Program-made: the position numbers and the translations under genes
The notes under the pieces: model-generated
Databases searched by the model: none
What the model was told of the DNA's origin: nothing
The model's input: only the letters and a program-made list of their open reading frames with translations
In this document: one piece after another, positions 7,779 to 12,999 of the stretch
Numbering within the stretch: the stretch's first letter is position 1
Layout of the letters: each line of letters opens with the position of its first letter
NCBI RefSeq assembly: GCF_016859125.1
Contig: NZ_CP069338.1
Location: forward strand, 4,403,501 to 4,467,500
DNA: 64,000 nt
Direction of reading: 5' to 3'
Source: Archangium violaceum
GTDB lineage: Bacteria > Myxococcota > Myxococcia > Myxococcales > Myxococcaceae

Positions 7779-9368
7779 ATGAGCGAGCGCCAACTGTGGG
7801 AGCGCTACAAGAAGTACCTGTGTGGAGTGGAGTCGGTCGGGCTGACGCTCGATGTGTCGCGGATGAACTTCGCCGATGACTTCTTCGAGCGGATGCGCGG
7901 CCCGATGGAGAAGGCCTTCGACGCGATGGAGGCCCTGGAGAAGGGAGCCATCGCCAACCCCGACGAGAAGCGGATGGTGGGGCACTACTGGCTGCGAGCC
8001 CCCGAGCGCGCGCCGGAGCCGGGCATCACGAAGGAGGTCCAGGACACGGTGGCGGCGGTGCGCTCCTTCGCGGATGACGTGCACGCCGGCCGCGTGAAGC
8101 CCCCGAAGGCGGACCGCTTCACTCGCGTGTTGCTGGTGGGCATTGGCGGCTCGGCGCTGGGGCCGCAGCTCGTGGCGGACGCGCTCGGCACGGCGGCGGA
8201 CCGGATGCAGGTGTTCTTCTTCGACAACACGGATCCGGACGGGATGGACCGGGTGCTGGCGCAGCTCGGGGACAAGCTCTCCGAGACGCTGACCGTGGTC
8301 ATCAGCAAGTCGGGCGGAACGAAGGAGACGCGCAACGGCATGGTGGAGGCCGAGCGCGCGTACCAGCAGAAGGGCCTGGACTTCGGCCGGCATGCGGTGG
8401 CGGTGACGGGCGAGGGCAGCGAGCTGGACCGGTACGCGAAGAAGGGCAACTGGCTGAAGACGTTCCCCATGTGGGACTGGGTTGGCGGACGGACCTCGGT
8501 GCTGTCGGCGGTGGGCCTGCTGCCGGCGCGGCTGCAGGGGCTGGACATCGACGGGATGCTGGCGGGGGCGCGTGACATGGACGTGGCGACGCGCGAGCGG
8601 GACGCGCTGCGCAACCCGGCGGCGCTGATGGCGCTCATGTGGTTCCACGCGGGCAACGGGCGCGGCGCGAAGGACATGGTCATCCTGCCGTACAAGGATC
8701 GGCTGATGCTGCTGTCGCGCTACCTCCAGCAGCTCGTGATGGAGTCGCTGGGCAAGGAGAAGGACCTGGACGGCAAGGAGGTGAACCAGGGCATCGCCGT
8801 CTACGGCAACAAGGGCTCCACGGACCAGCACGCGTACGTGCAGCAGCTGCGCGAGGGCGTGAACAACTTCTTCGCCACCTTCCTGGAGGTGCTGAAGGAC
8901 CGGGACGGCGAGTCGATGCAGGTGGAGCCGGACATCACGAGCGGGGACTACCTGCTGGGCTTCTTCCTGGGCACGCGCAAGGCGTTGTTCGAGAAGGGCC
9001 GCGAGTCGATGACGCTCTCGGTGCCGGACGTGAGCGCGCGCACGCTGGGAGCGCTGATCGCTTTGTACGAGCGGGCGGTGGGTTTCTACGCGACGCTGGT
9101 GAACATCAACGCGTACCACCAGCCGGGTGTGGAGGCGGGGAAGAAGGCGGCGGGGGTGGTGCTGGAACTGCAGCGCAAGGTGCTCGCGAAGCTGCGCGAG
9201 GACAAGGCGAAGGGCCATACCGCCGAGGAGATGGCCACGACCGTGGGCGCGCCGGACGAGGTGGAGACGGTGTTCAAGGTGCTGGAGCACCTGGCCGCCA
9301 ACACGACGCACGGTGTGAAGCGCGAGCAGGGTGCCACCCGCTTCGACACGCGCTTCCGCGCGGGCTGA
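7779..9368 (+). CDS. pgi: Glucose-6-phosphate isomerase
   Basis: A 529-residue cytosolic enzyme interconverting glucose-6-phosphate and fructose-6-phosphate. The sugar-phosphate (SIS) motifs are [13 protein letters not shown] near residue 118 and [14 protein letters not shown] near 172. The TEG-like active-site segment and the [14 protein letters not shown]-x-NQG loop match the cyanobacterial/myxobacterial-type Pgi. The ATG at 7779 is preceded by AGAGGGAGACGAG, a good ribosome binding site. It is divergent from the hydrolase gene and ends in a strong hairpin at 9388-9424. Confidence 0.95.
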
Positions 9369-9424: not shown

Positions 9425-9606
9425 GACCCCACGTTCGCGTGCATCCGCGAAATGGGACGCCCCCTCCATCTCATGAGCGGTGGTGCGCGAGCCGTCTGGC
9501 CTCCGTGCACTCGGGGCCATGCCTTTTGTCCACTCGGCCCGCTCCTTGCTGAGAAGTTGCCTCGGGGAGATTGACCCAAGAGGTCACCCGTCGCAGGCTT
9601 GAGTGC

Positions 9607-10464
9607 ATGGGACGGCACAGGAACGAGGATGGGGACGCCTTTCCCCGGGCGCCCACACAAGAGGAGTGGGAGGCGATGGGGCCGGAGGAGCGGGCTCGGG
9701 TGGTGGAGTCACTGCCCGGGGAGGTGACGTGGGACGAGATGGCCATGCCGGAGGGCGACCGGCATTTCCAGGCCAAGGTGCGAACGCTGGATGTGCTGCG
9801 CGGCTACTTCCGCCATCAGCGACGCAAGGTGTACCTGGGCGCGGAGCTGCCCGTGTACTACCCGGGCGAGCGGCGTTTCGCGCCGGACCTGCTGGCGGTG
9901 CTGGAGGTGGAACAGCATGAGCGGGACAAGTGGGTGGTGAGCCACGAGGGTAGGGGGCTGGACTGGGTGATGGAGGTGCACGTGGGCGGCGATCGGAAGA
10001 AGGACGCCGAGTACAACGTGGAGCGCTATGCCCGCGTGGGTATCCCCGAGTACTTCATCTACGACCGGTCTCGGCAACGGCTGGAGGTCTACCGGTTGCC
10101 GGAGCCCGGGGCGAAGAAGTACGAGCGGGTGGAGGCGAAGGAGGGGCGCTACTCCTCGGAAGTGTTGGGGTTGGAGTTCGAGGTGGTGGGGGAAAAGTTG
10201 CAGGTGTGGGCGGGCAACGCGCTGCTGCTGGAATCGGAGGAACTGGTGGCGCGGCTGCAGGAGAAGCTGGAAGCGGTGCAGCAGCGTGCGGATGAGGATG
10301 CCCGGCGGTTGGCGGTGGAAACCCGACGGCGAGAAGAGGAAACACGACGGCGAGAAGAGGAAGCACGACGGCGAGAAGAAGAGGTCCGGCGTCGGGAAGA
10401 GGCAGAGCGCCGTCTGGCGCAACTCCAGGCCGAACTGGAGCGCCTTCAGCATCGGGGGAAGTGA
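9607..10464 (+). CDS. Uma2-family (DUF820) putative endonuclease with charged coiled-coil tail
   Basis: A 285-residue protein. Residues ~40-190 form the PD-(D/E)XK-like Uma2 fold: VYLGAELPVYYPGERRFAPDL carries the catalytic Asp, DWVMEVHVGG gives the Glu strand, and YARVGIPEYFIYD is the family hallmark. The last ~80 residues are a helical tail of RREEE-type heptads encoded by imperfect 21-bp repeats (10321-10403). Uma2 proteins are abundant in myxobacteria and cyanobacteria and are nuclease-like, but their biological role is unclear. The start ATG 9607 gives MGRHRNEDGD; a TTG 36 bp upstream is in frame but lacks conservation that I can see. Confidence 0.85.
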   Translation: MGRHRNEDGDAFPRAPTQEEWEAMGPEERARVVESLPGEVTWDEMAMPEGDRHFQAKVRTLDVLRGYFRHQRRKVYLGAELPVYYPGERRFAPDLLAVLEVEQHERDKWVVSHEGRGLDWVMEVHVGGDRKKDAEYNVERYARVGIPEYFIYDRSRQRLEVYRLPEPGAKKYERVEAKEGRYSSEVLGLEFEVVGEKLQVWAGNALLLESEELVARLQEKLEAVQQRADEDARRLAVETRRREEETRRREEEARRREEEVRRREEAERRLAQLQAELERLQHRGK

Positions 10465-10562
10465 GCGCTCCCGGGTCTGCCTGCTCCACCGTTCGCTTCA
10501 GTTCCCCTGCTCCGTGGGACGACCGACATTGAGTCGGAGGGTCCACCGCGGAGGAGCGCGCC

Positions 10563-11798
10563 ATGGAGAACGCCGAGGTCGTGGCCATGCTCGGGGAGAT
10601 CGCCGACCTCCTGGAGCTCACGAACGAGAACCCCTTCAAGGTCCGCGCCTACCGGCGCGCGGCGCAGGTGGTGGACACGCTCCCCGTTCCCATCTCCGAG
10701 CTGGTGCGCAAGGGAGAGCTCGGTGGCCTGCCCGGTGTAGGAGTCCACACCGCCGAGCGCATCGCCCAGCTCGTCGAGTCGGGCACCTGTGACGTGCTCG
10801 AACGTCTGCGCGGCAAGGTTCCCCCGGGCGTCATGGAGTTGCTCCGCGTCGAGAGCGTGGGCCCGAAGACGGCCGCGCTCGTGTGGAAGGGACTGGGCGT
10901 CACCTCCGTGGACGCACTCGAGGAGGCCGCGCTCAGCGGTCGTCTGGCCTCATTGCCTCGTATGGGCGCCAGACGCGCGGAGGCCATCGTCTCGGCGATT
11001 GCGCGTCACCGCTCCCGTCAGGGGCGAGTCCCTCTGCACCGCGCCCTCCCGTACGCCGAGGACCTCGTGGCGCGCCTGCGCGCGATTCCAGGTGTGAGGC
11101 AGGCCATCGCCGCGGGCAGTCTGCGGCGCCACAAGGAGACGGTGGGGGACCTGGATCTGCTCGTGTCCTCGACGGACCCCGAGCGCGTGGTGAGCGCCTT
11201 CCCGAAGCTGCCCGGACGCTGGATGGACCGGGAGCTGCGCGGGCGGCCCCACCTGCTCGCCGGCATCGAGGTGGACATCCTCTCCACTGGCGCGCTGGAC
11301 CTCGACGCCGGGGTGCTCTCGGAGCTCGACTGCGTGGTGGCCAGCGTGCACTCGCGCTTCAACATGTCCTCGGAGGAGATGACGGAGCGCATCGTTCGCG
11401 CGCTGCGCAGCGGACTCGTGCACGTGCTGGGACACCCGAGTGGGCGGCTCATCGGGAGCAGGGACCCCTACCCGTATGACCTCGAGCGGGTGCTGGAGGT
11501 GGCGCGCGAGGAGGGCGTGGCGCTGGAGGTGAACGCGCAGCCCGAGCGGCTCGACCTGACGGACGCGGCGTGCCGGCGGGCGAAGGAGGCGGGGGTGAAG
11601 CTCGTCATCTCCAGTGACTCACACAACGCGCAACACCTGGACAACCTGCGCCACGGTGTCTGGGTGGCGCGGCGGGGTTGGCTGGAGGCGGAGGATGTGC
11701 TCAACACCCTGCCGCTGTCCGAGCTTCGGCGTCATTTCCGCCGCTCGCGCCGCGTGTCCTCCTCCTGGACGAGCGAGGCTCCTGGACTCTCTCCTTGA
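10563..11798 (+). CDS. polX: PolX-family DNA polymerase/PHP protein with a large internal deletion
   Basis: A 411-residue protein, whereas bacterial PolX is normally about 570. Residues 1-150 hold the helix-hairpin-helix 8-kDa-like region. GSLRR (185-189) and DLD (196-198) are the palm motif with two of three catalytic Asp. After about residue 218 the sequence jumps to the late PHP domain (LLAGIEVDIL at 231-240, then ASVHSRFN, HPSGRLIGSR and SSDSHNAQ). Missing are the third palm Asp (VDFR region), the thumb, and the first PHP metal motif (HxHT...SDG). About 170 residues are absent in frame, so polymerase and likely exonuclease activities are lost. Gap-filling repair polymerase is the ancestral role. 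Confidence 0.8.
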   Translation: MENAEVVAMLGEIADLLELTNENPFKVRAYRRAAQVVDTLPVPISELVRKGELGGLPGVGVHTAERIAQLVESGTCDVLERLRGKVPPGVMELLRVESVGPKTAALVWKGLGVTSVDALEEAALSGRLASLPRMGARRAEAIVSAIARHRSRQGRVPLHRALPYAEDLVARLRAIPGVRQAIAAGSLRRHKETVGDLDLLVSSTDPERVVSAFPKLPGRWMDRELRGRPHLLAGIEVDILSTGALDLDAGVLSELDCVVASVHSRFNMSSEEMTERIVRALRSGLVHVLGHPSGRLIGSRDPYPYDLERVLEVAREEGVALEVNAQPERLDLTDAACRRAKEAGVKLVISSDSHNAQHLDNLRHGVWVARRGWLEAEDVLNTLPLSELRRHFRRSRRVSSSWTSEAPGLSP

Positions 11799-11931
11799 GC
11801 CAGACATTCAGACATGGGAGGCGGCGTCAATCACCCCCCGGTGCCATGGATGCGGTCTGGGGATGGGGCATTGTAGCGAGGTGGATGGACTCGGGGAATG
11901 GAACGAATCCACGCGAAGCGAGGGGGCTCCT

Positions 11932-12333
11932 GTGACACCTACCGTGCTACTCGTCGAGGACAGCAACACCATCCGGCACATCCTCAAGGTCTATCTGATG
12001 AAGTTGAAGTTGAACTTCCTCGATGCGGACCGGGCCGAGCGGGGGCTGGAGTTGCTGCAGACGCATCTGGTGCATCTCGTCATCGCGGACGTCAACATGC
12101 CGGGGGGAATGGATGGGCTGGAGTTCGTGCGCCAGGTGCGCTCGAGTGCGCGCGAGCCGATGCGGCGGCTGCCCATCGTACTGCTCACCGGTGGCAAGGA
12201 TCCGGACCTCGAGGCCAGGGGGCTGCAGGCCGGTGCCTCCGAGTTCGTGCGCAAGCCCGTCTCCATCGATGCGCTCGCCTCCGTGGTGCGCCGGCAGCTC
12301 GGATTGCCCGCGGGGGTGGAGCTCGTCGCCTGA
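11932..12333 (+). CDS. CheY-like single-domain response regulator, copy 1
   Basis: A 133-residue receiver domain with no output domain. The acidic pair is Glu9/Asp10 (LLVEDS), the phospho-acceptor Asp53 sits in VIADVNMPGGMDG, the Thr switch is in VLLTGGKDP, and the conserved Lys is in FVRKP. The best start is GTG 11932, which follows a GCGAGGGGGCTCC purine-rich site. The N-terminal SNTIRHILKVYLMKLK is nearly shared with the second copy at 12505, so the two arose by tandem duplication. It is probably a phosphorelay or chemotaxis-type signalling protein; no kinase lies nearby. Confidence 0.88.
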   Translation: MTPTVLLVEDSNTIRHILKVYLMKLKLNFLDADRAERGLELLQTHLVHLVIADVNMPGGMDGLEFVRQVRSSAREPMRRLPIVLLTGGKDPDLEARGLQAGASEFVRKPVSIDALASVVRRQLGLPAGVELVA

Positions 12334-12504
12334 TCCACCGCAGTCGGGTGTTGAACATGCTCCTGCTTTCATCCGCTTGGTCTGTTCAATGTTGATCGCG
12401 CGGGTGCCCGCGGCGAATGACCTCGGGTCGACACACGTGGGAGCTTCCGGAATCCTTTCTTCCACGGCTTCCCGTTTGTGGCTGGATTCGCCGAGGGGAA
12501 TTCA

Positions 12505-12909
12505 ATGAAGCGCACCGTGCTGCTCGTCGATGACAGCGACACCATCCGGCACATCATCAAGGTCTACTTGATGAAGTTGAAGCAGGTGGAGTTCCTCGAC
12601 GCGGACCGTTCCGATCGGGGATTGAAGTTGCTGGGAGCGAATCCCGTGGACCTCGTCATCGCGGACTTCAACATGCCGGGGATGAATGGGCTGGAGTTCG
12701 TGCGCGAGGTGCGCTCGGACAAACGGCACGAGGTGAGCCGCGTGCCGCTCGTGCTGCTCACCGGTGGCAAGGCGCCGGACCTCGAGAAACGTGCGCTGGA
12801 GTCGGGGGTCTCCGAGTTCGTGCGCAAGCCCATCTCCAGCGCGGCGCTCACGGCCGTGGCGCGCCGGCACCTCGGGTTGCCCGAGGACGTGGACGACCTC
12901 GTCGCCTGA
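12505..12909 (+). CDS. CheY-like single-domain response regulator, copy 2
   Basis: A 134-residue receiver domain, paralogue of the preceding gene. The acidic pair is Asp9/Asp10 (LLVDDSDTIRHI), Asp54 in VIADFNMPGMNG is the phosphorylation site, and FVRKP carries the Lys. The ATG at 12505 follows GAGGGGAATTCA. The 171-bp gap to copy 1 argues for separate expression, or at least no translational coupling. Differences cluster in the alpha4-alpha5 surface, suggesting distinct partners. Confidence 0.88.
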   Translation: MKRTVLLVDDSDTIRHIIKVYLMKLKQVEFLDADRSDRGLKLLGANPVDLVIADFNMPGMNGLEFVREVRSDKRHEVSRVPLVLLTGGKAPDLEKRALESGVSEFVRKPISSAALTAVARRHLGLPEDVDDLVA

Positions 12910-12999
12910 GCCGCGCGCCTCGCGAGTGAGCTGTCCGCCGAGGCGTGTGGAGGGCGTATGCTCTCGCGGGTGGAGGGCTCATTCAGGAGGAAGCCGGGA

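Follow-up and report, generated by a model that had tools for sequence, protein, structure and literature searches.

Canonical bacterial PolX, as known from Thermus thermophilus (3AU2) and Bacillus subtilis, has the same domain order as the full-length orthologue of the gene described here, which aligns with 3AU2 over residues 1-566 (E 2.7e-143). Shortened or altered relatives have been reported in two forms: (i) noncanonical PolX, which according to Prostova et al. 2022 (PMC9226535) carries changes in palm and fingers but keeps functional nuclease domains, the shortest-palm group having palm or fingers deletions of 13-26 aa; and (ii) PolX-like proteins without a polymerase region, which PMC12926913 places almost exclusively in Actinobacteria. 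The latter source also defines a nine-letter PHP motif, HHDHEH[C/H]DH, and gives the PHP site as conserved in 95% of the main PolX group, versus 75% for the polymerase site. In B. subtilis PolX, substitutions in the PHP motifs impaired both phosphodiester and phosphoester hydrolysis, as stated in PMC6616362.

We analysed a window of 64,000 nucleotides from Archangium violaceum, which is part of a 12.68-Mb single-contig genome assembly. It contains an open reading frame, without stop or frameshift, for a truncated PolX paralogue (Table 1). The gene is a PolX by descent, as shown by orthology (87-89% identity) and synteny with the Archangium lansinium locus L033. When the 411-aa protein was compared with Pfam, RecR_HhH and the palm matched below their cut-offs and neither a thumb nor a PHP domain was found; a thumb was recognised in L033 only. 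The NCBIfam PolX model (NF006375) matched in two stretches, again below its cut-off (320.7 vs 426 bits). The ribosome-binding-like GGAGGAG is common to L033 and L034, with GAGGAG in L035, and a promoter and terminator scan found nothing.

Table 1. Features of the truncated PolX gene and its synteny anchors, in window coordinates
Feature	Coordinates	Strand	Basis
Truncated PolX paralogue, 411 aa, ATG start	10563..11798	+	ORF and comparison with full-length orthologues
N-terminal 8-kDa HhH domain, residues 1-76	10563..10790	+	Pfam HHH_8, 4.3e-21
Second HhH region, residues 92-146	10836..11000	+	Pfam HHH_5, 1e-11
Palm remnant with D196 and D198 retained, third Asp gone	11073..11216 (approximate limits)	+	Pfam match below cut-off
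C-terminal PHP part with E236, H263, H291, D352 and H354 (E412, H439, H467, D528 and H530 in L033); motifs I and II gone	11217..11747	+	
GGAGGAG, ribosome-binding-like, ahead of ATG	10550..10556	+	
Deletion junction, 528 bp (176 codons) of L033 missing	11216..11217	+	Breakpoint scoring, no tie
Glucose-6-phosphate isomerase-like gene (presumed Pgi), upstream synteny anchor	7779..9368	+	
Response-regulator gene, second of tandem pair, downstream synteny anchor	12478..12909	+	

We used the syntenic 586-aa orthologue of A. lansinium (L033:10001-11758) as the reference for the deletion. The left and right parts of the window gene are 87% and 89% identical to it, and because both parts match one orthologous gene at these levels, a chance match is unlikely. 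Each junction from CDS base 600 to 759 was scored; the single best breakpoint fell after CDS base 654, at an offset of exactly 528 bp and without a tie at neighbouring points, so that orthologue residues 219-394 are missing from the window protein. A preliminary description of the window had read the gene as a PolX that lost about 170 residues and passes from the palm to the late PHP domain at about 11220. Alignment with full-length PolX bears this out: the loss is in frame and, at 176 codons, slightly larger than that figure, its two flanks match one orthologue, and the exact break lies within 5 bp of the estimated position.

The segment that went carries the third palm Asp (D241, L033 numbering throughout), the thumb (Pfam 253-314), and four of the nine PHP ligands, namely H341 and H343 of motif I, D349, and H374 of motif II. 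Counterparts of H341, H343 and H374 are named in PMC6616362, and D349 was assigned through the motif given in PMC12926913. The lost ligands are the first four (HHDH), and EHHDH is retained. The absence of the third catalytic Asp and of the first PHP metal motif had thus been noted correctly; the second motif is gone too. Loss of all four ligands should abolish nuclease activity, and since the third palm Asp and the thumb have gone with them, the 411-aa protein is predicted from its sequence to have neither polymerase nor PHP nuclease activity.

Set against canonical bacterial PolX, the truncated protein lacks 176 residues that held the thumb, PHP motifs I and II and the last of the three palm Asp; the other two palm Asp remain. 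With noncanonical PolX, as portrayed in PMC9226535, it shares a degraded polymerase site (here through absence of the third Asp) that arises partly by palm deletion; those deletions are small and leave the nuclease in place, whereas in our gene the PHP site is broken too. Like the PolX-like proteins in PMC12926913, it is a shortened PolX relative, but those have no polymerase region and keep PHP, while here the HhH modules and half of the palm are retained and the PHP site is partly lost, leaving a palm remnant and an incomplete PHP domain. Because both active sites are hit, the truncated PolX fits neither kind.

We considered whether the deletion could have arisen outside the biology of the strain. 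No bases are shared at the exact deletion ends in the breakpoint scoring against L033. In the 80-base stretches around the deletion ends in genome G003, of the same genus and taken as a stand-in for the strain's own ancestor, the longest shared words measured 8 and 6 bases and did not line up in register, and on these grounds we rejected a repeat-mediated deletion or an assembly collapse. Relocation of the missing segment within the genome was also rejected, as only three matches of 33 to 38 bases were found. An assembly or culture artefact, in which the gene is in truth full length in the strain or the segment disappeared during subculture, would account for a junction seen in this one assembly only; nevertheless we regard it as unlikely, given a single-contig 12.68-Mb assembly, no repeats at the ends in the G003 sequence, missing DNA that is not misplaced in the genome, and a loss exactly in frame, as a random error would be about one time in three. 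The preliminary description had proposed that a full-length gene in other assemblies might expose an assembly deletion. A full-length gene is indeed present at the same locus, but in other species. The deletion itself is probably real and is precisely placed, and its biological meaning is most likely an ordinary one.

The same genome encodes an intact canonical PolX of 580 aa at about 11.60 Mb (G000:C1; loci L002 and L003). It belongs to the same family as the truncated gene but is a full-length, separate paralogue, 40% identical to it in the N-terminal part and 50% in the PHP part. The idea that the truncated gene is an allele of this complete PolX, which the preliminary description had raised, was rejected, as the two are different paralogues at different places on the chromosome with 40-50% identity.

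We next give the distribution of the paralogue and of the short form. Some PolX match was present in 91 of 96 family genomes, and a closer paralogue (at least 53% identity) in at least nine of the 96, the window's own among them. Among the matches listed, this paralogue is full length in all eight other family genomes: whole proteins were read for six (G003, G080, G051, G043, G067 and G040), and G047 and G081 align in one piece over orthologue residues 1-583 and 1-572. A search of 195 phylum genomes with 150 aa around the junction gave a match in 132, and among the matches listed the full query was covered by the window's own genome only. Matches crossing the junction point came from G155 (query residues 1-139), G001 (8-117), G013 and G014 (4-117), and G049 (40-150), while a few others overran it by about 20 residues. 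G001, G013, G014 and G155 have separate PHP-part matches at the spacing of a full-length gene, and G049 aligns in one piece over residues 2-566. G088 shows the PHP part only, because its contig ends there. The short form, which the preliminary description had suggested looking for in related genomes, was thus not seen as a conserved form among the matches listed for the 96 family and 195 phylum genomes.

Contig scans with six peptide patterns, including the junction KLPGRWMD, gave 12 loci in genome contigs, none with the short form, and no loci in viral contigs; both scans may leave out records of the window's own genome. At L042, L043 and L044 the matches run past the junction point into palm and thumb (to residue 315 in L042 and L044, and to 371 in L043). 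As a separate observation, the PolX-like matches in L042 and L044 (Peregrinibacteria, Peribacteraceae), which run from position 10001, stop after the thumb at orthologue residue 315, and these may be PolX proteins in which no PHP domain can be recognised. We also note that the order has a closer second PolX paralogue in scattered genomes (for example G128, G131, G134 and G155), with many genomes listing the canonical gene only.

Synteny allowed us to follow the site itself. The upstream anchor is a gene that we take, from its sequence, to be Pgi. The response regulators adjoin PolX in L033, and Pgi lies directly upstream of PolX in L034. Each of the six genus genomes gave matches to Pgi and to the regulators. 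The gap between the two is shortest in G004 and G006 (0.2 kb), followed by G005 (0.9 kb), the window genome (about 2.5 kb), G002 (2.6 kb) and G003 (about 18 kb). The PolX paralogue is absent from this site in four of the five other genus genomes (G002, G004, G005 and G006); in these four, all listed PolX matches belong to the canonical gene. A tblastn search of their Pgi-regulator regions with the L033 protein for a decayed remnant returned chance-level hits (best E 0.13), and the G002 gap holds other reading frames. That the paralogue adjoins Pgi in L034 suggests that it is ancestral. If so, it would have been lost whole at least twice and truncated once, because Pgi differences (counts of differing codons, not a tree) put G003 nearer to G002 and G005 and group G004 with G006.

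Taken together, these data probably reflect the recent loss of an internal segment from a second PolX gene that is dispensable and has been repeatedly lost in the genus. An accessory paralogue would have taken a single internal 176-codon deletion in this strain's lineage, the cell would depend on the intact canonical enzyme, and the short gene would be a disappearing remnant that serves no selected function. This reading draws on the sharp 528-bp deletion relative to a syntenic orthologue 87-89% identical, the presence of the canonical gene, the absence of the deleted DNA elsewhere in the genome, and the empty site in four sister genomes. The locus would then be a clean example of the loss of an accessory repair polymerase, by whole-gene absence in sister species and by internal deletion here.

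The pattern of substitution counts against that reading. We compared the window gene with G003 over 393 retained codons, using G080 as the outgroup and omitting the 18 codons nearest the stop, where the C-terminal tail aligns poorly. There were 15 amino-acid changes on the window branch and 13 on the G003 branch, with 16 unassigned, and 28 synonymous codon changes on each. The dN/dS between window and G003 was 0.18 in the left part and 0.16 in the right part. These data speak against an old, unconstrained pseudogene, and they are the main result against calling the gene simply dead. In a crude model of neutral drift after the deletion, the probability was 0.10 if the deletion fell at the start of the last 20% of the branch, 0.06 for 25%, 0.03 for 30% and 0.004 for 50%; this crude model therefore rejects neutral change only for a deletion that predates roughly the final 30% of the branch. 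A remnant without excess amino-acid change, with GGAGGAG kept and the frame free of stops and frameshifts, would look the same under continued constraint; recent deletion and continued constraint both fit, and the data do not separate them.

The unraised amino-acid change and the retained ribosome-binding-like sequence also bear on whether the short protein has been kept as a non-catalytic binder of DNA ends or gaps, whose two HhH modules would attach to repair intermediates, either competing with the canonical PolX or recruiting it. The HhH matches are strong (Table 1), and in the predicted structure residues 1-150 have block pLDDT values of 85-94. We nevertheless consider such a role improbable: among the matches listed no second genome has the short form, four sister genomes lack the gene altogether, and nothing dates the deletion as old. 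Moreover, the model drops to block pLDDT 61 and 52 around the junction (residues 211-230), and the deletion takes away two strands (338-342 and 368-375) that the full-length model has in its PHP domain. Mean pLDDT was 83.9 for the short form and 90.2 for the full form. We did not take the partial PHP model as evidence of folding, because full-length homologues in the alignment lend support to the partial domain. The preliminary description had seen in the open frame and good codon use a hint of a new structural or DNA-binding role; this found no positive support, since both are inherited from the full-length gene and about one in three random internal deletions would preserve the frame.

We also compared the position taken as equivalent to the lyase nucleophile Lys72 of Pol beta (window 10758-10760). 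It holds Arg here and in L033 (AERI) and in L034 and L035 (AARI), whereas 3AU2 (AEKI) and this genome's canonical PolX (ADKV) keep Lys. Because this position is Arg, lyase chemistry is unlikely for the truncated PolX. If the protein is made, DNA binding through its two HhH modules could be the function that remains. That a PolX lost both active sites in one step and was kept as a non-catalytic modulator of canonical PolX strikes us as quite unlikely; a short protein both made and kept would be a PolX reduced to DNA binding, contrary to the trend of better-conserved PHP sites reported in PMC12926913.

A Uma2-family gene (putative restriction endonuclease by Pfam) with a repetitive, charged C-terminal tail lies at 9571-10464, between Pgi and the truncated PolX. 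The two tandem response-regulator genes (11900-12910) cross-match the copies of relatives at about 75-78% DNA identity. In G003, about 16 kb separates Pgi from the PolX paralogue (L063 2500-18300), compared with about 1.2 kb in the window, as if there had been an insertion between them, and that interval includes a 61-bp duplicate of the 3' end of Pgi (L063 5035-5095).
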